Part shown: piece after piece, positions 3,775 to 23,658 of the stretch | Position numbering within the stretch: the first letter of the stretch is position 1 | Layout of the letters: each line of letters starts with the position of its first letter | Origin: Candidatus Vogelbacteria bacterium | Lineage (GTDB): Bacteria > Patescibacteriota > Minisyncoccia > Phycocordibacterales > JACOZG01 | Length of the DNA stretch: 33,219 nt | Reading direction: 5' to 3' | NCBI GenBank assembly: GCA_016181465.1 | Contig: JACOZG010000037.1 | Coordinates: forward strand, 1-33,219 | The notes under the pieces: generated by a model | The model's input: only the letters and a program-made list of their open reading frames with translations | Databases searched by the model: none | Told to the model about the DNA's origin: nothing | Translations under genes and position numbers: made by a program

Positions 3775-3801
3775 TCTGACGAATAGTCTATAATTAAATT
3801 G

Positions 3802-4929
3802 ATGACCGAAGCCGAATTGCGCGAAAAACAGGAACAGCTGAATGCCATTCTCTCCTCAATGGCCGAAGGGCTAATCGCCATTGATAACGAGCGCCGCGTC
3901 ATTTTGATGAATCAGGCCGCCGGCATCCTCCTCCGGACCGCGCCCCAGGAGGCGACCGGCCAAGATATTCGTCAGATTCTGCGCTCTTACCGTGACGGCG
4001 CCGAACTGCCGTACAAAGATTTGCCGATTGAGAAAGCGATGACCGAGCGCAATATCATCTCGGTTGGCCTCTTAGACAATCTTTCAGTTCGGGTCAAGAA
4101 TGGCCGTCTCTTCCCGGTGGCGCTGATGATCGCGCCCTTGTTAAATCGGGGCGAAGTCTCGGGCGCGATCATTCTGTTCCGCGACATCACTAAAGATAAG
4201 GAGATTGACCGCGCCAAAACCGAATTCGTGTCGCTGGCCTCGCATCAGTTGAAGACGCCGCTCTCGGCCATCAATTGGTATTCGGAAATGATGCTCGAAG
4301 AAGAAGTGGGGCCGTTGAATGACAAACAGAAAGAATATCTGAAAAATCTCTACGACGCCAATCGCCGAATGGTTGAACTCGTCAATTCTCTCCTCAATGT
4401 GTCGCGAATTGACCTCGGCGCTTTTGCGGTTGAGCCGACCCCGACTGATTTTGCCGCCGTGGCCGACGGCGTCTTGGCCGAACTCGCGCCCCAACTCGCG
4501 CTGAAGAGACTGCATCTGAACAAAGAGTATGATCCCAAGGTGCCGGCGATCAACGCCGACGGTAAACTTGTCCGCATTGTTTTCCAGAATCTTTTATCCA
4601 ACGCCGTTAAATATACGGCCCCGGGCGGCTCGGTCGGCCTCGCCATCAAGAAAGAAGGTGAGAATGTGCTGATTCGGGTGACCGACACCGGTTACGGCAT
4701 TCCAGCCGCGGACCAGGGGAAAATATTTACCAAACTTTTCCGGGCTGATAATATTAGGGATAAAGAAGCGGAAGGCACCGGTCTCGGTCTCTATATTGTC
4801 AAAGCAGTGGTGGAGGAGGCCGGCGGCAGGATTTGGTTCGATTCGCTCGAAGGCCGAGGTACCACCTTTTTTATCACTCTGCCTTTGGCCGGTATGCCAA
4901 AGAAAGATGGGGTCAAGGGTTTAACTTAA
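3802..4929 (+). CDS. Soluble PAS-domain sensor histidine kinase
   Basis: PAS region; H-box SLASHQLKTPLSAINWYSEMM; N-box QNLLSNAVKYTAPGG; DTGYGIP; GTGLGLYIVKAVVEEAGGRIW. Confidence 0.95.
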   Translation: MTEAELREKQEQLNAILSSMAEGLIAIDNERRVILMNQAAGILLRTAPQEATGQDIRQILRSYRDGAELPYKDLPIEKAMTERNIISVGLLDNLSVRVKNGRLFPVALMIAPLLNRGEVSGAIILFRDITKDKEIDRAKTEFVSLASHQLKTPLSAINWYSEMMLEEEVGPLNDKQKEYLKNLYDANRRMVELVNSLLNVSRIDLGAFAVEPTPTDFAAVADGVLAELAPQLALKRLHLNKEYDPKVPAINADGKLVRIVFQNLLSNAVKYTAPGGSVGLAIKKEGENVLIRVTDTGYGIPAADQGKIFTKLFRADNIRDKEAEGTGLGLYIVKAVVEEAGGRIWFDSLEGRGTTFFITLPLAGMPKKDGVKGLT

Positions 4930-4940
4930 ATAATTTAATT

Positions 4941-5339
4941 GTGGCCGAAGAAAAAACACGCGGTCGGATCCTGCTCGTTGAGGACGATAAATTTTTGTCA
5001 ACGGCGCTCGCTGATAAACTCGCGCGCGAGGGCTTTGCCGTGATCAAGGCGTCAAACGGCGAAGAGGCCTTGGCCAAAGTGCGGCTCGCCCGGCCCGATC
5101 TCGTGCTCTTGGATCTGATTATGCCGCAGAAAACAGGTTTTGAAGTGTTGGCTGACTTGAAACTGGAACCGAGCACCAAAAATATACCGGTCATTGTGCT
5201 GTCTAATCTCGGACAGGAAGCTGATATTAAAAAGGCCAAAGAGCTGGGCGCCCGCGATTACCTGGTCAAGTCCGATGTGGAAATGAAAACCGTGGTGGAA
5301 AAAATCAAAGCGGAATTAGCCAAAACGGTCCAGCCGTAA
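4941..5339 (+). CDS. Single-domain response regulator (REC)
   Basis: GTG start; RILLVEDDKFLSTALADKLAREGFAV...PDLVLLDLIMPQKTGFEVL...VIVLSNLG...LVKSDVEM. Confidence 0.93.
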   Translation: MAEEKTRGRILLVEDDKFLSTALADKLAREGFAVIKASNGEEALAKVRLARPDLVLLDLIMPQKTGFEVLADLKLEPSTKNIPVIVLSNLGQEADIKKAKELGARDYLVKSDVEMKTVVEKIKAELAKTVQP

Positions 5340-5340
5340 C

Positions 5341-7050
5341 GTGGAAATTTCCGCCGCCGAATTGAGGAAACTATTGGTCGAGCCCGGGCTCGTCTCGGCG
5401 GCGGATTTCGCCGCCGCCGCGGCGGAAAGCGAGGCCGAGAGACAGAATCTTTGGGCCGTGCTGGTGGATAAGGATTTGATTCGCGACGGTCAACTCGGCC
5501 AGCTCGTGGCCGAGGCCCACAACTTTCGTTGGCTTGATCTCCGGCGCGAGACGGTCGAGCCGGCGATTCTGACGCAAGTGCCGGAACTGGTCGCCCGGCG
5601 CCGCGGGGTGGTGGCTCTCTCGCGCGGACCCGCCGGGATCAAGGTCGGTCTCGCCGACCCGACCGATCTCGCCACCATCCATCTTCTGGAAAAACGTCTT
5701 GGCGATCGGATTCAGCCCTTCTTCATCACCCGGCGCGACCTCGCCGAAGCTCTGACCAATTACAAGGGCAGTTTGAAAGCCGAGTTTGAGGAAACATTAA
5801 GGCGCGTGTTCGATGAACGGGTGAGTCGCGAAGAGCGAGATAATCAAACGATTAAGCTGGTTGACCTGCTTTTGCGGTATGGCCATCAGAATAAGGCCTC
5901 GGATATTCACCTTGAGCCGTATCGCGATAAGGTTTTGGTCCGTTTTCGCATTGATGGCGTGCTGCACGATGTCCTGGAGGTGCCCAAGACTCTATCGGAC
6001 ATTATCCTGACCCGTCTGAAAATTCTGGCCCGGATGCGAACGGACGAACATCGTTCGGCTCAAGACGGCAAACTTCAATTTGCGCCGCCGCCGGGCGCGG
6101 CCGGGCGCGAGGAAACCGTTGATGTGCGCGTTTCCATCGTGCCGGTAACCGAGGGCGAGAACGCGGTCCTCCGTCTCTTGTCCGAACAAAGCCGTCAATT
6201 CAGTTTGACCGATCTCGGGCTCGGGGAGGCGGATCTCGTTAAGGTCAAACGGGCGATTGATAATCCCCACGGCATGATTTTGGTGACCGGCCCGACCGGT
6301 TCGGGCAAAACCACCACGGTCTACGCGCTGGTGAAAATTTTGAATACCCGCGATGTCCACATCTCGACCATTGAAGATCCGGTCGAGTATGATATTGAAG
6401 GCGTCAGTCAAATTCAGGTCAACCCGAAAACCAATCTGACTTTCGCTTCTGGCCTTCGGGCGATTGTCCGCCAAGATCCGGACATTATCGTCGTCGGGGA
6501 AATTCGCGACGAGGAGACGGCCGGCATCGCCGTCAATTCGGCGATGACTGGGCACTTAGTGCTTTCCACCCTCCACGCCAATGACGCGGCCACCACTCTG
6601 CCGCGGCTTCTCGATATGGGCATTGAGCCGTTTCTCGTGGCCTCGACCGTCAATGCGGTCGTGGCCCAACGTCTGGTTCGCAAGGTCTGCGATCGTTGCC
6701 GGATCTCGGCGGCGCCGACCCCGGAATCGGTGGCCCTGATCGGCCGCGAGCCGGAATTGAAACGGGCGTTCAAAGCGCGGGGTTACGGCCGCTTGAATAA
6801 ATTAACCTTTTATCGCGGCGCCGGCTGCGACCTCTGCAGTCAGACCGGCTATCAAGGCCGGATCGGGATTTTCGAGGCGATGACGATGAGCGATGGGGTT
6901 AAATCTTTGGTGGTGGCCCGAGCGTCGGCGAACGAAATCACAAAGCAGGCCCGGGCCGAAGGTATGTCCACCATGCTCGACGACGGACTCGACAAAGTGT
7001 TGATCGGTTTGACGACGCTCGATGAAGTCTTGCGGGTGACTAAAATTTAA
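5341..7050 (+). CDS. pilB: Type IV pilus assembly ATPase PilB / GspE
   Basis: ASDIHLEP, Walker A GPTGSGKTTTVYALV, DPVEYDIEGVSQIQVNPKTNLTFASGLRAIVRQDPDIIVVGEIRDEETA, CDRC/CDLC zinc motif. Confidence 0.97.
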   Translation: MEISAAELRKLLVEPGLVSAADFAAAAAESEAERQNLWAVLVDKDLIRDGQLGQLVAEAHNFRWLDLRRETVEPAILTQVPELVARRRGVVALSRGPAGIKVGLADPTDLATIHLLEKRLGDRIQPFFITRRDLAEALTNYKGSLKAEFEETLRRVFDERVSREERDNQTIKLVDLLLRYGHQNKASDIHLEPYRDKVLVRFRIDGVLHDVLEVPKTLSDIILTRLKILARMRTDEHRSAQDGKLQFAPPPGAAGREETVDVRVSIVPVTEGENAVLRLLSEQSRQFSLTDLGLGEADLVKVKRAIDNPHGMILVTGPTGSGKTTTVYALVKILNTRDVHISTIEDPVEYDIEGVSQIQVNPKTNLTFASGLRAIVRQDPDIIVVGEIRDEETAGIAVNSAMTGHLVLSTLHANDAATTLPRLLDMGIEPFLVASTVNAVVAQRLVRKVCDRCRISAAPTPESVALIGREPELKRAFKARGYGRLNKLTFYRGAGCDLCSQTGYQGRIGIFEAMTMSDGVKSLVVARASANEITKQARAEGMSTMLDDGLDKVLIGLTTLDEVLRVTKI

Positions 7051-7054
7051 AATT

Positions 7055-8098
7055 ATGAGAGTTAATTTGACCGAGAAGGCGATTCTGGCCAAGCATCTGG
7101 CGGTGATGCTGAATGCCGGGTTGACGCTCTCCGAAGCGCTCGCCGTGGCGATTGATTCCGCGGCGGCCGGAAACTTAAAAAGGGTGTTAAGGCGCGTGCG
7201 GCAATCGGTCGAGTCCGGCACCGCCTTCTCCCAGGCGCTCGGCGCTTATCCGAAAGTTTTTTCCGGCGTTTTCGTCAGCGCCGTTTACGCCGGCGAGCGT
7301 TCCGGCAACCTTGCCGTCAATCTCACCCAGCTCTCGCGGGCCCTAGAGAAAGAACGTACCCTGTTGGCTAAAGTCAAGGGGGCGATGATTTATCCGGCGA
7401 TCGTGCTTGCCGCCGCCGCGGTTCTAGGTCTCGGTATCGCCTTCTTTATTTTGCCTAAAATTACTCCACTCTTCCGCGGTTTGCGGATTGATTTGCCCTG
7501 GACCACTCGTTTTCTCATCTCGTTTGCCGACTTCATTGACGCTTACGGGGCAGCTTTTTTTCTGGGACTTGTCCTCGCCGCGATTTTTCTCCCCTGGCTT
7601 TTAAGACGGCGCTCGCTCGCGCCCTTGACTCATTGGTGCCTGCTTCATTTTCCGGCCGTCGGGAGAATCTCCGCCAATCTCAATCTGGCGCGTCTCGCCG
7701 GCACCGTCGGCCTCCTCTTAAAAAGCGGCGTCAACATTGACGAGACTCTGACCATCGCCGAAAAGACAACGGGCAATTTTTACTACCGTCGGGCCTTGCG
7801 ACGGGTCAGCGCCGATGTCGGCCGGGGCCTCAAGCTCTCCGAGAGTTTTGAGCAGTTTCCCGGACTTTTCCCGCTTCTCTTTAGCCGGCTGGCGCGGGTC
7901 GGCGAGGTCTCGGGCCGGTTTGAGGAAACCTTTTTTTATCTTGCCGATTTTTACGAAGACGAAGTGGATGCCGCGGCCAAGTCGCTCTCGACAGCGCTCG
8001 AGCCGATCCTGCTTTTGGTCATCGGTCTTGTCGTCGCCGGCTTGGCGCTCTCCATCATCACGCCGATCTATGAGATCACCGGCAACATCAGACGTTAG
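7055..8098 (+). CDS. pilC: Type II secretion F / PilC inner-membrane platform protein
   Basis: LTEKAILAKHLAVMLNAGLTLSEAL, repeated T2SSF domains, hydrophobic segments. Confidence 0.95.
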   Translation: MRVNLTEKAILAKHLAVMLNAGLTLSEALAVAIDSAAAGNLKRVLRRVRQSVESGTAFSQALGAYPKVFSGVFVSAVYAGERSGNLAVNLTQLSRALEKERTLLAKVKGAMIYPAIVLAAAAVLGLGIAFFILPKITPLFRGLRIDLPWTTRFLISFADFIDAYGAAFFLGLVLAAIFLPWLLRRRSLAPLTHWCLLHFPAVGRISANLNLARLAGTVGLLLKSGVNIDETLTIAEKTTGNFYYRRALRRVSADVGRGLKLSESFEQFPGLFPLLFSRLARVGEVSGRFEETFFYLADFYEDEVDAAAKSLSTALEPILLLVIGLVVAGLALSIITPIYEITGNIRR

Positions 8099-8150
8099 CT
8101 TTTCTTTCTATTCACACCGTGCTAGCTTGTTGAGCAGAAAGGAGAACAAC

Positions 8151-8363
8151 ATGTTCTTTGGGTGGAGAAAAAAGAAAACCCCGGATGAAGTTTTTGAAGC
8201 ACTTTGTGATTTTTTCGAAGCACATCAGAAGGAGGATGGTCTCGAGTTAGCCCTGAAAGACTTCTTGAACCGCTATCGGGCTAAACCTTATTTTAAGGAT
8301 CTCGTTGATAAGGCAAAGGTTTGGCTCCTACTTCTTCGAGCTAAAGACAAAAGATCAAAATGA
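8151..8363 (+). CDS. Small hypothetical protein (70 aa)
   Basis: MFFGWRKKKTPDEVFEALCDFFEAHQKEDGLELALKDFLNRYR; SD aaaggag upstream of ATG at 8151. Confidence 0.65.
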   Translation: MFFGWRKKKTPDEVFEALCDFFEAHQKEDGLELALKDFLNRYRAKPYFKDLVDKAKVWLLLLRAKDKRSK

Positions 8364-8387
8364 ATCCTCGACGGCGAACCAACCCAG

Positions 8388-8420
8388 GACCCGTTTCGCT
8401 TCGGCGCGCGGGTCTTTTTT
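8388..8420 (+). terminator. Rho-independent terminator
   Basis: gacccg tttcgcttcggcgcg cgggtc followed by tttttt. Confidence 0.85.
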
Positions 8421-8446
8421 GCGCCAATTTTTTGTTTCTTTTCTGT

Positions 8447-8836
8447 CTACACCCTAACGATGGAATGTTTTTTAATCCAAGCGGATATTTTAGACAAGTT
8501 ATATTTTTTGATCACCGCCGAGAGAACAAATTTTTCCAGTTTTTCGTTTGTCACCCTTAATTCAAATCCATTGAGATGCAGGAAGCGCGAGACCAGAGCG
8601 GCCGCCGCGCGTTTATTGCCGTCAATGAAGGAGTGGTGATAGGCGCACGACTCAAAATAAGCCGCCGCTTTATCGAAAATGGTTGGATAAAGATCACGGC
8701 CGGAGAATTGTAACTTCGGCCGCTCAATCATTGAAGCGATTTGATTAAGATCGCGAACCCCTTGAGACCCACCGATCTCGCTGATAATTCGAGCGTGGAT
8801 TATCAAAATCTCTTCTGGCTCGAGGTAGTTGATCAC
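8447..8836 (-). CDS. doc: Death-on-curing (Fic/Doc) family toxin
   Basis: YHHSFIDGNKRAAAALVSRFL matches the Doc HxFxDxNKR-type motif. Confidence 0.92.
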   Translation of the reverse strand: MINYLEPEEILIIHARIISEIGGSQGVRDLNQIASMIERPKLQFSGRDLYPTIFDKAAAYFESCAYHHSFIDGNKRAAAALVSRFLHLNGFELRVTNEKLEKFVLSAVIKKYNLSKISAWIKKHSIVRV

Positions 8837-9063
8837 TTTTTCGCTAACGCTTTTAAGGCCAGCCGATATTTCTCAATAAAGGAGTTAGCCCAATCGATAA
8901 TTTCAGCCGGTCTTTTTTTAGACGGACCAATAGTTACCCGTTCATTGGCGATATCGACGTCCACGGTCACTTCGTCGCCGATCTCCAGCCCCAACTCCTT
9001 TAGTGATTTCTTGGGGATGGTCACTGCTGCCGAGGAACCGACTTTTAGCAATTTTTGAATCAT
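8833..9063 (-). CDS. AbrB/MazE/SpoVT-type antitoxin
   Basis: MIQKLLKVGSSAAVTIPKKSLKELGLEIGDEVTVDVD; 4-bp ATGA overlap with doc. Confidence 0.9.
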   Translation of the reverse strand: MIQKLLKVGSSAAVTIPKKSLKELGLEIGDEVTVDVDIANERVTIGPSKKRPAEIIDWANSFIEKYRLALKALAKK

Positions 9064-9098
9064 AATTTTAATTATAGTTTTATTATAATTATTGTCAA
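9064..9098 (-). promoter_or_regulatory. Promoter and overlapping operator of the AbrB-Doc operon
   Basis: Minus strand TTGACA-N16-TATAAT-N7-ATG; inverted repeat taattata-N7-tataatta at 9069-9091 covers spacer and -10. Confidence 0.85.
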
Positions 9099-9163
9099 CC
9101 GTTTTGTGTTATCTCGCCGCGCGGGTCTTTTTTGTAGCGGGTTGGTATAATGATTGATCAGCA

Positions 9164-9610
9164 ATGCACGGTTTCACTTTAATTGAACTTTTGCTGGTGA
9201 TCGCGATTTTTCTGGTGGTCGGCGTCGTCGTTACTCCGCTTTACGGCAATTTGTCGGTCGCGACTCAATTGAATGAAGAAGCGAGCCAGCTGGTTCAGAC
9301 GATCCGGCTGGCCCGCGAGCGCGCCGTTTCCGGTTTTCACTCTAGCCGCCACGGCGTCTGTTTTGAATCCGCGGCCGGCGGCGGGCGCTATATTCTTTAC
9401 CAGGGCGCTGATTGCGCCACTCGGCTCGCGAGCGCGGATCGGGTCACTGATTTGCCGCCGGCCCTGACTTGGTCCACGACCCTGCCGCTTCCGGACATCA
9501 ACTTTGATGCTGTTGGCGCGCCGTCAAATATCGGCGTTATCACTTTGACTCACGCTGCCTACGGCACGCGGACGATCACCATCAATGAACTTGGCTTGGT
9601 TGAAGAATAA
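9164..9610 (+). CDS. GspH/FimT-like minor pseudopilin
   Basis: MHGFTLIELLLVIAIFLVVGVVVTPLYGNLSV; class III prepilin signal. Confidence 0.92.
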   Translation: MHGFTLIELLLVIAIFLVVGVVVTPLYGNLSVATQLNEEASQLVQTIRLARERAVSGFHSSRHGVCFESAAGGGRYILYQGADCATRLASADRVTDLPPALTWSTTLPLPDINFDAVGAPSNIGVITLTHAAYGTRTITINELGLVEE

Positions 9611-11336
9611 AGGGCAAAGTATTTTGGAGGTGATTTTGGCTTTGGCCATTTTCGCGCTCTTTGCCAGCGCGATGGTCTCGTTGATTCTCGGCAGTTTCGA
9701 GGCGCTCGGCCGCGGGAGCGACTACCTCGCCGCCGCGGCGCTCGCGGATGAAGGTCTGGAGGCCGCGCGCTCGATTCGCGACGGCGCCTGGAATGAGCTG
9801 ACCGTTAATCAGAGCGCGGTCACTTTCACTTCGGGCGAATGGCAATTGATCGGCGAGGGCACAGACGAACAGCTTGGCAAATTCCATCGGGTCTTAACTT
9901 TTTCTTCGGTTTGCCGCGACAGCAATTTGAACTTGACAACTTGTCCGTCCGGCACGACCGACCTCCACTCTCGAATCGTCAAAACCGTGGTTGATTGGAT
10001 GACTCCGGTCGGCACCGCGGCGGCGGTGGAACGTCAGACCATGATGACCAATTGGGACTCACGCGATTGGCTACAGACCGATTGGTCCGGCGGTCAGTAT
10101 GCATCGGTTGATCCCACGATAGATGTCAGCGTCGTCGGCCAAATTAGTTTGAAAGCGAAACCATCAGTATGGACCGCTCTTGCCAGCACCGGCACGCAAA
10201 CTTGGAACGATATTTGGATGTTTTCGGCCACCGACGGTTTTGTGGTTGGTTCCGGCGGTCAGATCCGGCGGTGGAATAACCCTGATCCTAATGTTTGGAA
10301 TGTTATCACTCCAGTCAATACCCAAAACTTAAATGCCGTTCATTGTTCCTCGGCGACTAATTGTTTCGCCGTGGGGGCAAGCGGAACGATTCTTAGGTGG
10401 AATGGATCGGTTTGGTCCTTACCATCGGGTTGGGATACTGGTAATCAAACTTGGAACGATGTTTGGGCCTTCGGCCCCACATCCGGTTTTGTGGTGGGCG
10501 CGGCCGGCGAGATCTGGCGACACAATGGTAGCGCCTGGGTTCGATCTCAAGACACCGGTAACCAAACTTGGAATGCTCTCTGGATGTTTTCTGCAACCGA
10601 TGGCGTTGTGGCCGGTTCGGCGGGAGAGATTCGACGCTACAATGGTAGTAGTTGGTCCTTACCATCGGGTTGGGATACTGGTAATCAAACTTGGAACGAT
10701 GTTTGGATGTTTAGCGCGACGGACGGCGTAGTGGTCGGGAGTAGTGGTTTGGCTCGTCGTTTTAACGGAGCAGATTGGAATACACCGGTGTCAACGGGCG
10801 TTACCATCAGCATCAACGCTGTCTATCTTTCTCTAACCAGCGGTTGGGCCGTAGGGAACAATACTCCAGGGGAGTTAATATTGTCTTGGGATGGTGCAAG
10901 TTTTAGTCGTGTCGGACCCTCGTCTTCTCTGCCCAACATAAATTTGTTCGGTTTGCATTGCGCTTCTATTAATGATTGTTTTGCGGTCGGCGCCAGCGGA
11001 AATATTTTCCGTCTCGCCGGCGGCGGGTATGAAATGGCTGGCTCTTTAATTTCTTCGGCGTTTGATCTGACCGATCCCTCGCCGGTGCAGATTATCGAGT
11101 GGGACGAGCAGGTGCCGGTGTGCGCTCCGGCCTGCACGATCCGTTTCCAGATTCGCGCCGCGGCGGACCAACCGGCGCTGGCCGCCGCGCCCTGGTCTTT
11201 GGATTTTACCGTTGCCGCCGGCGCCCTGATCAATCCGAGTTATAATGGTAACCGCTGGCTACAGTACCGCGTGTTACTAGACGGCGACGGTATAAGCACC
11301 CCGGTGCTTAATGAGGTTAGAATAAACTATAAATGA
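9585..11336 (+). CDS. Prepilin-like N-terminus fused to YCF48/beta-propeller-like repeats
   Basis: KGQSILEVILALAIFALFASAMVSLILGSFEALGRGSDYLAAAALADEGLEAARSIRDGAWNEL, then repeated TGNQTWNDVWxFxxTxGxVVGxxGxIxRxNGSxW units. Confidence 0.88.
   Translation: MNLAWLKNKGQSILEVILALAIFALFASAMVSLILGSFEALGRGSDYLAAAALADEGLEAARSIRDGAWNELTVNQSAVTFTSGEWQLIGEGTDEQLGKFHRVLTFSSVCRDSNLNLTTCPSGTTDLHSRIVKTVVDWMTPVGTAAAVERQTMMTNWDSRDWLQTDWSGGQYASVDPTIDVSVVGQISLKAKPSVWTALASTGTQTWNDIWMFSATDGFVVGSGGQIRRWNNPDPNVWNVITPVNTQNLNAVHCSSATNCFAVGASGTILRWNGSVWSLPSGWDTGNQTWNDVWAFGPTSGFVVGAAGEIWRHNGSAWVRSQDTGNQTWNALWMFSATDGVVAGSAGEIRRYNGSSWSLPSGWDTGNQTWNDVWMFSATDGVVVGSSGLARRFNGADWNTPVSTGVTISINAVYLSLTSGWAVGNNTPGELILSWDGASFSRVGPSSSLPNINLFGLHCASINDCFAVGASGNIFRLAGGGYEMAGSLISSAFDLTDPSPVQIIEWDEQVPVCAPACTIRFQIRAAADQPALAAAPWSLDFTVAAGALINPSYNGNRWLQYRVLLDGDGISTPVLNEVRINYK
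10412..10706 (+). repeat. 55-bp exact direct repeat in the propeller-coding region
   Basis: ttggtccttaccatcgggttgggatactggtaatcaaacttggaacgatgtttgg at 10412-10466 and 10652-10706. Confidence 0.9.
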
Positions 11337-11827
11337 AACGCGGTTTTACGCTCATTGAATTGCTGATTTATTTGGCGCTGGTCAGCGTGGTGGTCACCAG
11401 TTTGATTTTGTGGGTGCTCAATTTGTCCGGCGTGCGGAATAAAAATTTTGCCGCGGTCGAGGTGGCAGCGAACAGCCAATTTGTGATTTCCGAGATCACG
11501 CGCGAGATTAAACAGGCCGAAGCGATTGTCGCCCCGGCCGCCGGCGCCGCCGGGGCGACGTTGGAGCTTGATCGGCCCGGCGCCTTGCCCAATGCTGTTT
11601 TCCGCGCCGTGGCCGGCGCGCTTTATTTTGAAGTGGTCGGCAATCCGCCGGTCGCTGTTTCTAGCTCTCTGGTGGAGGTCGCAGATTTGGTGTTTAGAAA
11701 TCTCACTGGCGCTTTTGACGACCGCGCGAATGTGGCGGTGCAGGCGGTCGTCCGTTTCCGCGATTCAGCGTCAGGCGATTTCGCTTATGAGCGTGAAATT
11801 AACACTGCGGTCAGCAATCGCTTATGA
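11333..11827 (+). CDS. Minor pseudopilin (GspJ/PilW-like)
   Basis: MKRGFTLIELLIYLALVSVVVTSLILWVLNLS...ISEITREIKQAEAIV. Confidence 0.88.
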   Translation: MKRGFTLIELLIYLALVSVVVTSLILWVLNLSGVRNKNFAAVEVAANSQFVISEITREIKQAEAIVAPAAGAAGATLELDRPGALPNAVFRAVAGALYFEVVGNPPVAVSSSLVEVADLVFRNLTGAFDDRANVAVQAVVRFRDSASGDFAYEREINTAVSNRL

Positions 11828-12219
11828 TTAAACTAGAAACAGAAGCGCGCGGTTTTATGGCTCTAGTCACCGTCATCATTATTGCCGCCACCGCTCTGGT
11901 GATGTCTCTCAATTCCTCGCTTTTGGGTTTGGGCACGCTTGAATTTGGGACTCTCGTCGCCGGCGGGGGCGAGGCCGCCTCACTCGCCGATGCCTGTGTT
12001 GAAGAAGCGCTCCAGCGCTTGCGGGTCAATCAGAGCTACAGCGGCGATCCCGCCCTCTCGATCTTCGGCGGAACGTGTATAATAACTGTCACTGACCTTG
12101 GCGGCGGTGAGCGGCAAGCGACGGTCATCGCGACTCAGGGCGATTTTACCAAACGGGTGGAGGTGAATATGACTCTGGGCGTTCGAACCGTAACCGTCAG
12201 CCATTGGCAGGAACTTTAG
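11824..12219 (+). CDS. PilX-like pilus assembly protein
   Basis: EARGFMALVTVIIIAATALVMSLNSSLLGLG...GEAASLADACVEEALQRLR; position in pilus operon. Confidence 0.75.
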   Translation: MIKLETEARGFMALVTVIIIAATALVMSLNSSLLGLGTLEFGTLVAGGGEAASLADACVEEALQRLRVNQSYSGDPALSIFGGTCIITVTDLGGGERQATVIATQGDFTKRVEVNMTLGVRTVTVSHWQEL

Positions 12220-12222
12220 TTT

Positions 12223-13713
12223 ATGATTTCCAGATTATTTAATTTTTTTCGTCAACCGTCGGTCGGTCTCGACATCGCCGATCGGAGTATTGAGGCGGCC
12301 GAGTTAGTGCGCCGCGGCCGTAAATTAGTGGTGGCGGCGCTCGCCCGTCAGCCGCTCCCGGCCGGCGTGGTCGAGCGGGGCGAGATCAAAGACCAAGCTA
12401 AATTGGCCGGGGCCTTGAAGTCGGTTCTTAATCTTGCCAAACCCCGAGCCATTACCCCGAAACGGGTCTATTTTGGTCTGCCGGAATCGCAGGTCTATCT
12501 GCATTCGTTTGTTCTGCCTGTCTCGGCCGCTAAATCGGAGCTCGGCTCGCTCCTTCTTACGGAGGCGCGCGAGCATGTGCCGCTCGAGACCGATGATCTG
12601 GTCTTTGGTTATAAATCTCTCGGGGTCGGGTCGGAGGGAGAACACTATCTCATCGCCGCCGCCAGCCGGCGGGTGCTCAACGATTGGCGGGCTTTTTTCC
12701 ACTCGCTTGGTTATGCGGTGGAGTTTGATCTTGAGGCACTGGCTTTGTTCCGGAGTCTTGGTCCGCTTGCCGCGGCTCCCGCGGCCGTCGCTGATTTTGG
12801 CGCGGTTACGACCAATATCGCGGTTTTTGACCGCCGCGGCCTCCGCTATACCCGAACTCTCAATTTTGGCGCCGCGGCCTTGACCGATAACCTGATGAAA
12901 AGTCTTAAGTTGAAACTGGACGAAGCCGAAAAACAGAAACGGGAAATCGGCCTGATTGATCCGGACAGCAAAATCTTCACCATCCTTTTGAAAAGTTTGG
13001 TCCCCTTGCGGGATGAGCTCAAGATCACTCTTGATTACTACGAGCGCTGGTCGGGAGAGAAGGTCGGAGCGCTCTACCTCGCCGGCGGCGGCAGTGAGTT
13101 GCGGGGCTTAGCCGACTATTTGAAGTCTAATCTGGAAATTGACGTGACGGTCGCCCGCTCCGCTTTTTTGAATCAGCCGCTCGTCTACCTTGAAGCGCTG
13201 GGTTTGGCGCTCAAGGCCTTTGCCAGCCGGCGCGAACGGGAAGAATTAACCTTGCGGTTTGGAACGAGTTCGCAATCGGGCCATAAGTTGGCGCCCCATT
13301 GGTTCACGGTTAATCTTAAACTCACTGTCTTAATTATCCTGCTGGCGATCGGGGCTTTGGTTCTCGCCGGCGGCTATCTTGTCAGACAACGCGCGCGGGA
13401 AGCCGAGCGCGACCGTCGCCGTCTGGAAATCGAGTCTCGGCCGGTTGTTTCGCCGGAATTGATTTTCCCTGAACCTATAGCCAGGCCTAACGCCACTTCC
13501 ACTCCAGCTTCTGTTACGGTCAGAGAGACCCCGACCGGCTGGCTCAATGTCCGGTCCGGCCCGGGCACCAGTTTCGCTCCTGTTGGTCGGGTTAACCCGG
13601 GTGAAGTTTATCCACTCTTGTCCGAGGAGGGGGAATGGGCTAAAATTAAAATAGTTTTAGAAGTCGAAGAGATCAAGGGTTGGGTCAATAAACAGTACAT
13701 TATTAAAAACTAA
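12223..13713 (+). CDS. pilM: PilM-like actin-fold protein with C-terminal TM segment and SH3b domain
   Basis: VGLDIADRSIEAAELVRRG...VYFGLPESQVYLHSFVLP...LYLAGGGSELRGLADYL; TM; GWLNVRSGPGTSFAPVGRVNPGEVYPLLSEEGEWAKI. Confidence 0.88.
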   Translation: MISRLFNFFRQPSVGLDIADRSIEAAELVRRGRKLVVAALARQPLPAGVVERGEIKDQAKLAGALKSVLNLAKPRAITPKRVYFGLPESQVYLHSFVLPVSAAKSELGSLLLTEAREHVPLETDDLVFGYKSLGVGSEGEHYLIAAASRRVLNDWRAFFHSLGYAVEFDLEALALFRSLGPLAAAPAAVADFGAVTTNIAVFDRRGLRYTRTLNFGAAALTDNLMKSLKLKLDEAEKQKREIGLIDPDSKIFTILLKSLVPLRDELKITLDYYERWSGEKVGALYLAGGGSELRGLADYLKSNLEIDVTVARSAFLNQPLVYLEALGLALKAFASRREREELTLRFGTSSQSGHKLAPHWFTVNLKLTVLIILLAIGALVLAGGYLVRQRAREAERDRRRLEIESRPVVSPELIFPEPIARPNATSTPASVTVRETPTGWLNVRSGPGTSFAPVGRVNPGEVYPLLSEEGEWAKIKIVLEVEEIKGWVNKQYIIKN

Positions 13714-17586: not shown

Positions 17587-18186
17587 ATTCCAACATCTAA
17601 AAGCAATACTTGGCTCATCGTCATTATTATCTTAGTCGTCGGCGCCATTCTCTGGCCCTTGCTTAGGCGCAGCGCCCCAGCCGAGACAGAAACGTCGGCA
17701 GACGGTGCCGTCGCTACTACTACGGTTTCCGTAGACGAATTGATAGTCGAAAAAGACAACCTGACTGCCTCGGTGGTGAACGTCGCTGATGCTGATACCA
17801 TAACTCTTCGCGTTTATTTCGGCAATCGCCGGTTTGACCCGCAAGGTTTGAAGTGCGCTACGGTTTACCCGGTGTCCCGGACCCTGCCGGCAACCACGGC
17901 CGTGGGCCGGGCGGCGCTCTTGGAATTATTGAAGGGCCCGACGCCGGTTGAAGCCGCCGCTGGCGCGGTAACCTCTATCAATCCCGGTGTCCGGTTGCAG
18001 AATCTGACTATCCTAAACGGCGTGGCTTATGCTGATTTCAGTTCGGCTCTGGCCGCCGAAGTCGGGGGTGCCTGTCTCGTAACCGCGATCCGCGCCCAGA
18101 TTACCGAGACCTTAAAGCAATTCCCAACGGTTAAATCCGTCTTGATCTCGATTAACGGCGTTTCCGTCGGTATCCTCCAGCCGTAA
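17587..18186 (+). CDS. GerMN-domain membrane-anchored protein, probable non-canonical start
   Basis: Frame open after stop TAG 17578-17580: (ATT)PTSKSNTWLIVIIILVVGAILWPLLRRSAPAE...ADTITLRVYFGNRRFDP...AALLELLKGPTPVEAAAGAVTSINPGVRLQNLTILNGVAYADFSSAL; the ORF-track TTG start (17659) would lose the TM. Confidence 0.75.
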   Translation: MPTSKSNTWLIVIIILVVGAILWPLLRRSAPAETETSADGAVATTTVSVDELIVEKDNLTASVVNVADADTITLRVYFGNRRFDPQGLKCATVYPVSRTLPATTAVGRAALLELLKGPTPVEAAAGAVTSINPGVRLQNLTILNGVAYADFSSALAAEVGGACLVTAIRAQITETLKQFPTVKSVLISINGVSVGILQP

Positions 18187-18241: not shown

Positions 18242-18269
18242 TTGACAGGGTTTTGATCCCAGCTAATAT
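18242..18269 (+). promoter_or_regulatory. Promoter of the SipW/TasA-like locus
   Basis: TTGACA-N16-TAATAT, 9 nt before ATG at 18279. Confidence 0.85.
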
Positions 18270-18278
18270 TACCGACAA

Positions 18279-19568
18279 ATGAGGAAGATATTTTTGGGCT
18301 TGCTGTTGTTAGTTGGGGCACTGGCGATTCTTCCGCTTTTTGCCGCCTTCGAAGTCCATGTCGTCAATGTCACGGCCAAGATTGAGAACGCTCTTTCGTT
18401 AACAGCTGAAGCGCTCGACTTCGGCACGGTGTTTCCGCAAGAACACCTGGCTCAACAACTCGACATCGCCCTGTCGAGTTCTTTTTTAGCCGAGCCGCGG
18501 GTGGATGATGTGAACTACTTCATCCGTCAGAAGCCCAAGTGCGCGATTACCAGTAACGATGGTACCAGTTTTGATCCGGAAAACACTGTTACCGGTCAGG
18601 TAATCGTCAATCGAGAAAATAACACCAGCAACAGTGTTACCCGTATTGATTGCGGCCCGCCGCCGCGCGACTTGCGAGAAGGTGAATCGTGGGGCGTTCT
18701 GCCATCACTCTGCGAATACTTGTCCAAGACCGGCGAAGAAAATGAACTGCTGTCATTTCATAAACCGTGGCAGGTAGAAAACAGTCAAGTAGTTTGGAAT
18801 GATACCAGAGGTTATCTGGCAAAATCAACGAATGACATTTCTGACACCTGGACGATTGACCTGGCCGTGCCGTGCTTTGGTGGTTATTGCGCTCAAGATT
18901 GGGAAGATTTTGTCAGACGAATCAATGCTGGTGCTCTACCAGCCGAGCAATGGGTTCAACCAGCCGAAAACGAGCATAAAATTTTCGGCTGCGACCTCTG
19001 GGTGGAGGTGACTGGCGTGAGCCAAGCCGGATGGGTTACCCCGCCACCCGCCGAGCCGGTGACTATTTTTTCTGATGACTTCGGAACGGGGGACACCGCC
19101 AATGACATTCCGGATTGGGATGAAGAAGGGGATGACAATGCTTCCTCCACGTTGGCCAGGGCCCCGACAGCAACCGGTAATAACACCGCGAGTCCGGACG
19201 GCGGCCGCTTTGCCAGAATTGGCTCCGGCGAGTGGATTTGCCGGCCAGTGAATGCTACGGGCTTTAACGTGTTGATGTTGCAGTATTATTGGAGGGGCGA
19301 TAATGATGCCGAAAATGACAGTGACCTCGGCCTCGTTGAATACGCGACTGGCGGTACCTGTGATAGTCCAACCGGATTGACCGCGCTGGTAGCCCATGAG
19401 TTGGATGATGACCCCGCCGCCGGCGAGGAGTGGAGTTCATGGCAATCCATTAACTTGCCGGACGCCATTGATGGAACGGCCTTCTTACTCCGATTCCGTA
19501 ATGCCGCCACTGCCAATGAAGAGGATTTCCGCGTGGATGATGTCGTGTTGATCGGTCTGGCGCCATGA
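18279..19568 (+). CDS. TasA/camelysin-like secreted protein with extra C-terminal beta-sandwich-like domain
   Basis: LPLFAAFEVHVVNVTAKIENALSLTAEALDFGTVFPQEHL shared with the next two genes; C-terminal IFSDDFGTGDTANDIPDWDEEGDD...FRVDDVVLIGLAP. Confidence 0.75.
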   Translation: MRKIFLGLLLLVGALAILPLFAAFEVHVVNVTAKIENALSLTAEALDFGTVFPQEHLAQQLDIALSSSFLAEPRVDDVNYFIRQKPKCAITSNDGTSFDPENTVTGQVIVNRENNTSNSVTRIDCGPPPRDLREGESWGVLPSLCEYLSKTGEENELLSFHKPWQVENSQVVWNDTRGYLAKSTNDISDTWTIDLAVPCFGGYCAQDWEDFVRRINAGALPAEQWVQPAENEHKIFGCDLWVEVTGVSQAGWVTPPPAEPVTIFSDDFGTGDTANDIPDWDEEGDDNASSTLARAPTATGNNTASPDGGRFARIGSGEWICRPVNATGFNVLMLQYYWRGDNDAENDSDLGLVEYATGGTCDSPTGLTALVAHELDDDPAAGEEWSSWQSINLPDAIDGTAFLLRFRNAATANEEDFRVDDVVLIGLAP

Positions 19569-19662
19569 TTTAAGTTTGACATCGAGCCTCCCGTCACCAC
19601 CTCGACGATGTTGGCGGGAGATGTAAAAATAAATTATCAGTTTATTAACCTAAGAAAAAGAT

Positions 19663-20412
19663 ATGAAGAAAATTTTTGTCGGACTGTTGACGCTCGGCGC
19701 GGCGCTCGTGGTCATCCCGATGTTCGCCGCCTTCGAAGCGCATGTGATTAACGTAACGGCCCAGATTGAGAATGCTTTGTCGGTAACGACCAATGCTTTG
19801 GACTTCGGCACCGTCTTCCCGCAAGAGCACTTGGATAAGACCGTTGATGTGGCTTTGTCGCAATCGTTTATTGATGAACCGCGAGTGGACGACGTATCCT
19901 ACTTTATCCGTCAAAAGCCCAAGTGCGCGATTACGAGCAATAACGGCGAATCGTTTGATTCGGAAAATACGGCCACTGGTCATGTAATCGTGGACGAGCA
20001 GGGTAATATTAGTATTGGTTGTGGTGAGCCACCGCGCACTCTCGTAACCGGTGAGTCTTGGGGTTCCCTACCGTCACTCTGCGAATATATCTCCAAAGAA
20101 GGCGATGATGAAAACGACGATACTACTCCTTCTTTCCACCAGCCGTGGACCATTGATGACGGTGAGATTGATTGGCTGGACACCTTTGGTTATCTAACTA
20201 AGGACGGTAATGATATTTCTGATACCTGGACCATTGATCTGGCGGTGCCTTGCTTCGGCGGTTACTGCGCCCAGGACTGGGCTGATTTCGTTAACGACAT
20301 CAACCCTGACGCCGGCGATCCGAATCAGTACACTCAACCGATTGAGAACGAACACAAGATTTTCGGCTGTGACTTGTGGGTGGAGGTGGATGGTGTTAGT
20401 GAGTCAGACTAG
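19663..20412 (+). CDS. TasA/camelysin-like secreted protein, paralogue 2
   Basis: IPMFAAFEAHVINVTAQIENALSVTTNALDFGTVFPQEHLDKTVDVALSQSF; conserved Cys pattern with 18279 CDS. Confidence 0.75.
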   Translation: MKKIFVGLLTLGAALVVIPMFAAFEAHVINVTAQIENALSVTTNALDFGTVFPQEHLDKTVDVALSQSFIDEPRVDDVSYFIRQKPKCAITSNNGESFDSENTATGHVIVDEQGNISIGCGEPPRTLVTGESWGSLPSLCEYISKEGDDENDDTTPSFHQPWTIDDGEIDWLDTFGYLTKDGNDISDTWTIDLAVPCFGGYCAQDWADFVNDINPDAGDPNQYTQPIENEHKIFGCDLWVEVDGVSESD

Positions 20413-20423
20413 GACACTAATAG

Positions 20424-21143
20424 ATGAAAAAATTATTAGTCGGTTTAGGTAGCGTCTTGTTAGTGCTGGTGGCGATGCCGCTCTTCGCCGCTTTTGAGGC
20501 CCATGTGGTGAATGTCTCGGCGACGATTGAGAACGCGCTGTATGTGCATCCGCAATCGCGAGAGTTTGGGACGGTGTTTCCGCAGGAATATCTTGAACAG
20601 GCGATATTCGTAACCTTCAGTGAATCGTTTTCCGCTACAGATCAGAGGCGTGTCGGCACGGTTGAGTATGCGATTAAGCAAAAACCAAAACCGCTTGCCG
20701 CCTACGAAGCCCAAGTGGGGATTGAACCAGCGAGAGCCTGGTGCCACGACAATTATCCGATCACGCCTTATAGTTCTACGGACTCAAGCTGGCAGAGTTA
20801 TCTGACTAACTGCATGCCGTCCTTGTGCCCCTATCTCTCCAAGACGCCGGACGGGTTTCCCTCACCGAGCAATGACACCGGGGTCTTGCCCTTCCACGAT
20901 CCGTTTGCCACTTCTTCGTTCGCGACTGGGAAAATCAACAAGTTCGGCACGGATGTGGGCGATAACTGGATCATTGATTTAGCCGTGCCTTGCTTCCGGG
21001 GTCAATGCGCTCAAGATTGGTCGGCTTTTGTCACGGGTAAAAATCCTTCGGTTACCGACCCGTCAATCTACGAGCTGTCGTCAGAATTGGAGCACGAAGT
21101 TTTCGGTTGCAATCTCTGGGTCGAAGTTACCGATATCTACTAA
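20424..21143 (+). CDS. TasA/camelysin-like secreted protein, paralogue 3 (divergent)
   Basis: MPLFAAFEAHVVNVSATIENALYVHPQSREFGTVFPQEYLEQAIFVTFSESF. Confidence 0.75.
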   Translation: MKKLLVGLGSVLLVLVAMPLFAAFEAHVVNVSATIENALYVHPQSREFGTVFPQEYLEQAIFVTFSESFSATDQRRVGTVEYAIKQKPKPLAAYEAQVGIEPARAWCHDNYPITPYSSTDSSWQSYLTNCMPSLCPYLSKTPDGFPSPSNDTGVLPFHDPFATSSFATGKINKFGTDVGDNWIIDLAVPCFRGQCAQDWSAFVTGKNPSVTDPSIYELSSELEHEVFGCNLWVEVTDIY

Positions 21144-21238
21144 CCCCATACCACGCGGGGTACGGGGCGAGCGATTCGATCGTTTCTTTCTCAACCTAGT
21201 GTTAAAATCATTAGGTTGGGAAGATAAGCGATTAAATT

Positions 21239-21676
21239 ATGGAGGAATTGATTCAACCAAAAAAGAAGTTGCGTTTAATTGACAAAATTGTCTTAGCGGT
21301 TTTGCTTCTGGTTTTTCTCTTTGCCTTTTATGTGACGCTTGACGCCAATAAATACCGCGCGCTGGTGCGCGTGGTCGCCGGCGAAGGCAAAGTCGGTGTC
21401 AATCCGACAGATCAGGCGCTTGATTTTGGCGATCTCTCCCGCGGCACTTCGGCCGTGCGCCGCGTGGCGATTGAGAACGGTTTGCCCTTGTCGCTTTATG
21501 TTTTTGCCGTCCGCACCGGCAGTATCCGAACGCTGGTTAAGCTCGATAAAAATTATTTCCGGATTCCGCCGCGCTCGTCGGACAAAATTGAATTCTCGGT
21601 CTATATGCCGGCCTCGGCCGAGATTGACCGAGTTTACGACGGCCGGGTCTATCTGTTTAAAATCCCAATGCCATGA
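21239..21676 (+). CDS. Membrane-anchored Ig/ASH-like partner protein
   Basis: One N-terminal TM; VGVNPTDQALDFGDLSRGTSAVRRVAIENGLPLSLYVFAVRTGSI. Confidence 0.6.
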   Translation: MEELIQPKKKLRLIDKIVLAVLLLVFLFAFYVTLDANKYRALVRVVAGEGKVGVNPTDQALDFGDLSRGTSAVRRVAIENGLPLSLYVFAVRTGSIRTLVKLDKNYFRIPPRSSDKIEFSVYMPASAEIDRVYDGRVYLFKIPMP

Positions 21677-22110
21677 GCCGCGCCGCGCGTTTTATCCTTA
21701 ATTTATTTGTCTATCTGGCGATTATCGGCGGTTTGATCTTCGGCCTGCCCCGTTTCCTAACTTGGGCGCTCGAAACGCCCTATCCCATGGCCGCCATCAC
21801 CTCGGGCTCGATGTGGCCCGTGCTTAACGAGGGCGATTTGGTCTTCATTCAAGGCGGCCGAAAACTGGAGGAGTTGAAAGTGGGCGACATCATTGTCTGG
21901 CGCGGGACAGAGGACAGGGGCTTTACCATTCACCGGGTGGCTAGAATTAACGGCAGTCAAATTATCACCAAAGGTGACGCCAATTTCAACGAGGATCAGC
22001 CGATTGAGTTTGATCAAGTAGTTGGCCGGGCGCTGACTTTCCGCGATCGTCCGGTGCACATCCCGCATCTCGGTTCAATCACGGTGCTGGCAAGCAATTG
22101 GAAAAAATGA
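21673..22110 (+). CDS. sipW: SipW/ER-type signal peptidase I
   Basis: AITSGSMWPVLNEGDLVFI (catalytic Ser) and FTIHRVARINGSQIITKGDANFNEDQ (His in place of the bacterial Lys). Confidence 0.88.
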   Translation: MSRAARFILNLFVYLAIIGGLIFGLPRFLTWALETPYPMAAITSGSMWPVLNEGDLVFIQGGRKLEELKVGDIIVWRGTEDRGFTIHRVARINGSQIITKGDANFNEDQPIEFDQVVGRALTFRDRPVHIPHLGSITVLASNWKK

Positions 22111-23123
22111 AAAAAAGTTTTGACGGCGTCATTAGAAAGCCGAAAATCGTGTTAAGGTCGGACCTTAAAAATTCTAAGTCTCAAGGTCCGACCTTGAGGA
22201 CCCAATGGCCGGTCGCCGCGGCGATTATTTTTGTCGCGATTTTGATTAACTCGGTTACCCTTCTTTCCGCCTTCGAAGCCCATGTCATCAATGTGACGGC
22301 GAAAATTGAGCGCCGGCCGAGCCAGTGCGACGCGCTCTCGCCGGGCTACTGGCGCAATCACGAGGGCTGTTCGGGCGGCGCCGGGGAGAGTATTTGGGCC
22401 TCGCCGATTGATGTTTTGAGCTCAACTTTTTCCGGCGTTTTTGCCGGTTACAGCGGCGCGGGCATTTGCGCCGCCGAATGGCAACCTAATTGTCCGTCGG
22501 CAGTAACGCGCGAGGGCCGGCTCTGCCGCGCCAAACTCCACACTTTGGCTGATGAGCTTAATTTAGTCGCTGGGCATCTCGATCTTAACACTTTGATTGC
22601 CGGCGCCGATCGCGGTGGCGGCTCTTTTGACCGTTTGGGACTCTCGCCGGCCTCCACCGTGGCCGAAGCGTTGACGGCCGTGGAAGCCGTGATCGCCCGG
22701 CATGAGGCCGATGCCACGCTTGACGGCCGCGAATGGCTCGTGGACGCGGCCCAAGTGGCCGAGCGGATTCACTCTTTCTACGAAGACGAGAATCCGATCG
22801 CGCCGCAGTGCATTTTTGATTTGGATCAAGTGAACTTGTCAGCGGTGGAACCGCTTGGCCCTGCTGCATCGCAGATTGAAGAGATTGAAGCGTCGCCCGT
22901 GACTGCTGTCGAGGTCGTTGAATTGACGGCTACGACTACGGCGCCGGTGGTTGAGGGGGCCACTTCCACTCCGCCGGCGGTGGTTGAAGAAACGACAACC
23001 ACCCCAATCGTTGAAGAAGTGGTTGTCGTTGAAGAAGCCGTTGAAGAAACCGTTGTTGAAGATCAGCCAGCGGAAATTGAATCAGCGCCGCCGGAACCAG
23101 TGCCAGAACCAGCCAATGAATAA
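22107..23123 (+). CDS. Fourth candidate SipW substrate with GYWRNH-motif domain and acidic Thr/Val/Glu-rich tail
   Basis: LLSAFEAHVINVTAKIERRPSQCDALSPGYWRNHEGCSGG...; tail TTTTPIVEEVVVVEEAVEETVVEDQPAE; ATGA overlap with sipW. Confidence 0.75.
   Translation: MKKSFDGVIRKPKIVLRSDLKNSKSQGPTLRTQWPVAAAIIFVAILINSVTLLSAFEAHVINVTAKIERRPSQCDALSPGYWRNHEGCSGGAGESIWASPIDVLSSTFSGVFAGYSGAGICAAEWQPNCPSAVTREGRLCRAKLHTLADELNLVAGHLDLNTLIAGADRGGGSFDRLGLSPASTVAEALTAVEAVIARHEADATLDGREWLVDAAQVAERIHSFYEDENPIAPQCIFDLDQVNLSAVEPLGPAASQIEEIEASPVTAVEVVELTATTTAPVVEGATSTPPAVVEETTTTPIVEEVVVVEEAVEETVVEDQPAEIESAPPEPVPEPANE
22154..22195. repeat. In-frame palindromic element in the CDS N-terminus
   Basis: aaggtcggacctt (22154-22166) and its reverse complement aaggtccgacctt (22183-22195); 42 bp = 14 codons. 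Confidence 0.9.
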
Positions 23124-23658
23124 GTTTTATATTTTATTCTTCATTCTCGCTCTGGCCGGCGCCGGCTGGTGGTTTGTCAAAGAGGTGAAGGAACGGATTC
23201 CGGCCAGCGCTGACCAGAGTGTGGCGTACCCCGAGTTGAATCGAGAACATATTGAGGTAGGAACAGCCCATGGCGATTATAACTCTAATCCGCCCTCGTC
23301 CGGTTGGCATTATGCCGAACCGGCCAAAGCGGGATTCTATGATGTTAATGAGCCTTTGATTCCGGACGAGAATGTCATTCACAATTTAGAACACGGCGAG
23401 ATTTGGTTTGCTTATCGGCCAACTATTCCTGAACCGATTAGGGATATACTGAAGAAATTCACGGCTGAACCGTTAGTGATAATTACTCCCAGATCAGCAA
23501 ACGACGCTGATATCGCCCTGGTCGCTTGGGGTCGAGTGGATAAATGGAATGTGCCAGAGGATGGCACGCTCGATACCACTCGGATTAGCGATTTCATCAC
23601 CCGCTGGCGCGATCGGGGGCCGGAGAAACTTTCGCCCTCGGCGCATCTTCGCCGTTGA
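23116..23658 (+). CDS. DUF3105-family membrane-anchored protein
   Basis: YNSNPPSSGWHYAEPAKAGFYDVNEPLIPDENVIHNLEHGEIWFAYRP. Confidence 0.85.
   Translation: MNKFYILFFILALAGAGWWFVKEVKERIPASADQSVAYPELNREHIEVGTAHGDYNSNPPSSGWHYAEPAKAGFYDVNEPLIPDENVIHNLEHGEIWFAYRPTIPEPIRDILKKFTAEPLVIITPRSANDADIALVAWGRVDKWNVPEDGTLDTTRISDFITRWRDRGPEKLSPSAHLRR

Follow-up and report, generated by a model that had tools for sequence, protein, structure and literature searches.

A recurrent Patescibacteria locus joining an ER-type signal peptidase to tagged proteins: a candidate donor-strand fibre or adhesin system

The closest described systems to the locus considered here are the SipW/TasA operons of Bacillus, tapA-sipW-tasA and sipW-calY, in which a dedicated signal peptidase adjoins its substrates, and the main and accessory substrates share an N-terminal segment. 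Mature TasA begins with AFNDI and mature TapA with AFHDI, and TapA donates a strand to start the filament and cannot accept one (PMC10151520); in TasA the mature chain opens with the donor strand, residues 28-38 (PMC9674648). Donor-strand fibres outside the chaperone-usher systems also include the archaeal bundling pili of Pyrobaculum (AbpA), which are reported, as cited in PMC9674648, to be structurally related to TasA. Chaperone-usher pili (FimC/PapD with FimA/FimG) employ an N-terminal extension as the donor strand, together with a PapD-like Ig partner.

The locus lies in a 33,219-nucleotide stretch of DNA (the window; contig C17) from a genome of 643,941 bases (about 0.64 Mb, 91% complete), where six open reading frames, SUB1-SUB2-SUB3-ANCH-SIPW-TAIL, run head to tail from 18279 to 23123:

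18242..18269, + strand: sigma-70-like promoter, TTGACA-N16-TAATAT, a consensus match only
18279..19568, + strand: SUB1, with signal peptide, tag, SUB domain and C-terminal passenger region
19663..20412, + strand: SUB2, with signal peptide, tag and SUB domain, without passenger; the modelled member
20424..21143, + strand: SUB3, without passenger, of the paralogue class that adjoins ANCH (clade of 8, support 0.90)
21239..21676, + strand: ANCH, with an uncleaved N-terminal TM helix (residues 13-34) and a PapD/MSP/ASH-like Ig domain
21673..22110, + strand: SIPW, an ER/archaeal-type signal peptidase, Ser46/His87
22107..23123, + strand: TAIL, with signal peptide, tag, "SPGYWRNH" domain and Pro/Glu-rich C-terminus, and no SUB domain

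The elements that an initial annotation had listed here (promoter, three paralogues, membrane partner, peptidase and fourth protein) are thus all in place, with the start of TAIL taken as the ATG at 22107 and not the TTG at 22098. Promoter-like matches are about twice as frequent in the region as in shuffled sequence (11 versus 5.6 expected), and the listed site ends 9 nt 5' of the SUB1 ATG, so that a transcript begun there would be nearly leaderless. ATGA overlaps are shared at the ANCH/SIPW and SIPW/TAIL junctions, which suggests translational coupling across both. The flanking genes encode a protein with a GerMN domain (Germane, PF10646, E 1e-17; 17659-18186) just 5' of SUB1, and a DUF3105 protein (23116-23658) whose start overlaps the end of TAIL; the latter was considered as a component and left out of the system because no similar ORF was matched in the related loci.

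As in the Bacillus operons, a dedicated signal peptidase appears to adjoin its substrates, the main (SUB) and accessory (TAIL) substrates share an N-terminal segment, mature substrates are predicted to start with A-F (AFEAH being the counterpart of AFNDI and AFHDI), and the peptidase gene overlaps that of the accessory substrate, by the SIPW stop and TAIL start here and by the tapA stop and sipW start in Bacillus. Unlike those operons, the locus has an extra PapD-like membrane protein in ANCH, at least three SUB paralogues, C-terminal passengers and six shared Cys; SUB is without PF12389 sequence or profile similarity, and the donor strand, described for TasA, is here a candidate. TAIL shows no apparent relation to Bacillus TapA. 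The locus would work like the SipW/TasA type without demonstrable membership of it, and what is new relative to that type is the PapD-like anchor and the putative end-piece classes described below.

The segment common to SUB1-3 and TAIL, AFEAHVxNVTAxI, stands just after the signal peptide and its hydrophobic core and is referred to as the tag:

18345..18389, + strand: tag of SUB1, AFEVHVVNVTAKIEN, candidate donor strand
19729..19773, + strand: tag of SUB2, AFEAHVINVTAQIEN; in the mature SUB2 model, residues 1-5 and 8-13 fall below a pLDDT of 50
20490..20534, + strand: tag of SUB3, AFEAHVVNVSATIEN
22269..22310, + strand: tag of TAIL, AFEAHVINVTAKIE

Beyond these four, the 643,941 bases of this 91% complete genome hold no further perfect match, and the single match with three mismatches lies on contig C11. 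Across 24 SUB domains the tag is the most conserved window (entropy of 0.37 bits over 17 positions versus 1.74 elsewhere), with a pairwise identity of 86% against 45% for the rest of SUB. Recent gene duplication was rejected as the cause of this identity, as the synonymous sites of the tag codons in the window have diverged while the residues are mostly unchanged (pS 0.62 versus pN 0.10), which points to selection and not to recent copying. In 19 TAIL proteins, tag positions 1-13 are conserved, with the exception of position 12, and conservation drops from position 14 on; the conserved stretch of 13 residues is approximately the length of one beta-strand, and the residues preceding it are conserved only as hydrophobic. 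A viral origin was also considered and discarded, two search patterns derived from the tag having found no relative in 2.9 million viral contigs.

The gene set recurs well beyond the window. A scan of a genome collection yielded 11 loci, all from Patescibacteria, the named relatives being Patescibacteria/Parcubacteria records, on which grounds the present genome probably belongs there too; one of the six seed patterns used was identical with the tag and so biased the scan towards tagged relatives, and the TAIL result depends less on that pattern, as it rests on position after SIPW. In profile searches, SUB was found in 19 of 384 genomes of the class and in 7 of 380 genomes of the phylum (the present genome included in each), and a search with SUB2 found no match in 59 relatives, which makes for a patchy distribution. 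All 20 SIPW-containing loci, the window included, keep the order SUB(n)-ANCH-SIPW-tagged TAIL (in L006, L051, L052, L053 and L056 the order was checked by position); these represent 19 genomes, since L007 and L065 belong to one. SIPW, counted at E<=1e-30, is present in 17 of the 384 class genomes, SUB in 19 and both in 15 (P about 1.5e-21). The proposal of a conserved SipW-type locus with tagged substrates is borne out by these counts, and homologues of the substrates, far from never co-occurring with an ER-type signal peptidase, clearly do so. In the two genomes with SIPW and without SUB, SIPW stands at a contig edge and is followed by a tagged TAIL; among the four with SUB but no SIPW, SUB lies at contig ends in three, the fourth being G075. 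In five of the six SUB genomes from other classes, SIPW lies within a few kb of SUB. The locus in G075 (L064, 3662-8021) is diverged, with a SUB starting AVGSRAVSVQATIENAL, an ANCH, a TAIL bearing AFEGHGVTLTA and an untagged SUB-like gene, and has no adjacent SIPW. A literature search, conducted largely outside the subscription journals, turned up no account of a locus of this kind in Patescibacteria, and the gene set, recurring in many distant members of the phylum, seems undescribed.

The peptidase itself is best described by TIGR02228, the ER/archaeal-type signal peptidase I family (81.2 bits versus a cut-off of 51.85, E 7e-23), and its catalytic Ser46/His87 pair is invariant in 9 of 9 homologues; against the SipW equivalog NF046067 it scores 39.3 bits, below the cut-off of 190. 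Since further Peptidase_S26 genes, distinct from SIPW, occur on contigs C44 and C47 of the genome, SIPW looks like a peptidase dedicated to the locus.

These observations allow a model to be proposed by which the locus would build an undescribed donor-strand surface fibre or adhesin, a reading to which we assign a probability of roughly 60%. SUB1-3 and TAIL would be exported via their signal peptides, and SIPW would cut at the start of the tag, thereby freeing the 13-residue N-terminal segment, which may then supply the strand missing from the beta-sandwich of a neighbouring SUB (donor-strand complementation). TAIL, with a donor strand and without a SUB domain, might initiate the fibre or cap it at one end, in the manner of TapA with TasA, whereas SUB1-3, as donor and acceptor, would polymerise into the chain, and the opposite end would in some relatives be closed by an untagged SUB. 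The Ig domain of ANCH, held on the membrane by its uncleaved helix, would provide the base of the fibre or act as a chaperone at the membrane, and the SUB passengers (VWA, SpaA, ice-binding and others) may confer the binding function of the fibre, perhaps in attachment to hosts or surfaces. Strand-exchange fibres are favoured because the logic lies close to that of Bacillus, where TapA and TasA share an N-terminus and TapA donates but cannot accept. Whether the locus defines a whole undescribed class of Patescibacteria donor-strand fibres, in which TAIL would only donate, untagged SUB only accept and the remaining SUBs do both while bearing exchangeable adhesive passengers, with a PapD-like base anchored in the membrane and assembly licensed when a dedicated ER-type peptidase frees the strand, is a more tentative matter, for which the odds seem a little short of even.

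The domain content of the proteins is consistent with such a division of labour. TAIL carries the tag and lacks the SUB domain, and its remainder differs among variants (GYW-like, LTD, SdrD_B and extensin-like regions), the C-terminal regions including LTD, SdrD_B, SpaA and Pro/Glu-rich tails; thus the tag is not limited to fibre-domain proteins, although the initial annotation had placed TAIL among four like substrates. Genes of the SUB3 type, all without passengers, group in a clade of 8 (support 0.90), of which the SUB3 of the window and most other members lie directly 5' of ANCH. Untagged SUBs form a clade of 4 (support 0.98) that is always 3' of TAIL, and L008, L016, L062 and L064 have additional untagged, weaker SUB matches after TAIL; the window itself has no untagged SUB. 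Judged by domain content, putative donor-only (TAIL), donor-plus-acceptor (SUB1-3) and acceptor-only (untagged SUB, in relatives) classes would therefore all be present. Passengers vary among SUBs, with VWA on 13 of 37 and SpaA-like, ice-binding or RTX domains on others, SdrD_B and LTD also being among the passenger families, and the passenger region of SUB1 (about residues 255-429) has no Pfam match, residues 1-248 being 69% identical to SUB2.

The SUB domain is described by no Pfam or NCBIfam model in profile searches, and a profile search of PDB sequences found no solved homologue up to E 10. The AlphaFold model of mature SUB2 is beta-rich and confident (mean pLDDT 90.8, pTM 0.85), and the only segments with pLDDT below 50 are residues 1-5 and 8-13, both in the tag, although low N-terminal pLDDT is common for other reasons as well. 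The strand that follows the TM helix of ANCH was placed by AlphaFold (block means about 81-89) despite a shallower alignment than that of SUB2, which shows that the method can place such a strand from fewer sequences when it is part of its own domain. Conserved, unplaced in the SUB2 model and losing its conservation in TAIL after residue 13, the tag behaves as a donor strand should, as had been suggested from the sequence, and strand exchange would be compatible with this behaviour. Six Cys positions are common to most SUB members (five of them in 22-23 of 24), and disulphides may complete the SUB fold without a donor strand.

The main rival explanation gives the tag a role in recognition or sorting, by SIPW or in a subsequent attachment step, and has the locus display separate monomeric adhesins. 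The tag is common to proteins with unrelated remainders, as the TAIL variants are, it directly follows the signal peptide, and it strictly co-occurs with SIPW, all of which such a signal would explain. However, signal peptidases chiefly recognise positions -3 to +1, whereas here the fixed residues are the 13 that follow the site, those before it being only hydrophobic; the loss of the TAIL pattern at about one strand length and the unplaced tag of the SUB model also speak against a recognition signal, and this explanation is considered unlikely.

A second alternative concerns descent and is compatible with the donor-strand reading, namely that SUB belongs remotely to the TasA/camelysin family and has diverged past sequence detection. 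The layout is alike, from the signal peptide, predicted A-F start and strand of the substrates to the SipW-type peptidase in the same operon, and a P-x-(D/E) turn stands at mature residue 31 in SUB and 35 in TasA (PMC10151520). However, PF12389 matched 0 of 24 SUB sequences and gave nothing over cut-off in 25 genomes, whereas B. subtilis, the control for the genome search, was positive and B. subtilis TasA itself, in a sequence identical to 8AUR, scored E 8.7e-24; hhalign put the probability of SUB against the TasA family at 0.3 out of 100. As to a jelly-roll fold like that of 5OF1 or 8AUR, a Foldseek search of the beta-rich SUB2 model against the PDB listed nothing at E<=0.001 and no TasA among the top 50 matches, though TasA entries are present in the PDB sequence set; AbpA was likewise missing among the PDB sequence and fold matches listed. 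By sequence, the substrates cannot be counted as TasA/camelysin family members, the initial annotation having listed them as TasA/camelysin-like candidates, and a hidden common descent appears unlikely.

That ANCH is a true chaperone of a chaperone-usher-like route, with the SUBs as fimbrial subunits of that superfamily, is very unlikely: ANCH matches PapD-like chaperones (SfaE, FimC, Caf1M) and MSP and SPD-2 domains by fold with probability of about 1.0, and AggA and FimG are among the weak Foldseek matches of SUB (the best probabilities being 0.72 for an ASH/PapD-like domain and 0.69 for the AggA fimbrial subunit, both non-significant), but the ANCH matches are superfamily-level (E 2e-3 to 2e-2), ANCH has one domain and not two, is membrane-bound and accompanies a dedicated signal peptidase, unlike chaperone-usher partners, and no outer-membrane usher gene was seen at the locus. 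Patescibacteria cells are not known to have an outer membrane, which also counts against that route. By sequence, ANCH matches FAP47 and Hydin, and its resemblance to PapD, MSP and ASH is at the level of the superfamily; it was also considered as a TasA paralogue and rejected as such, its domain being PapD/MSP/ASH-like instead. Under the donor-strand reading, ANCH would act as chaperone or base.

If the donor-strand reading is true, signal-peptidase-licensed strand exchange reaches a lineage and a protein family without sequence relation to TasA, and the acceptor-only and donor-only end pieces make fibre polarity directly testable. To our knowledge, little is known of how Patescibacteria attach to hosts or surfaces beyond type IV pili, and a putative fibre locus that is compact and conserved, and whose adhesive domains can be exchanged, is a concrete candidate for such attachment. 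Two further observations concern neighbouring or related sequences. An undescribed TAIL domain, whose motif resembles GY(W/Y)-x-N-(H/N), lies at about 22320-22810 of the window and is also found in L007, L008, L010, L011, L012, L058 and L065, and at L010:2-1438 it occurs in one untagged protein away from the locus. The window also carries type IV pilus genes (3799-13713), with a T2SSE ATPase (5341-7050), T2SSF (7055-8098) and PilM (12223-13713), and in the same region a PAS/histidine kinase (3799-4929) and a protein of 583 aa whose N-methylation motif is weak (9585-11336).
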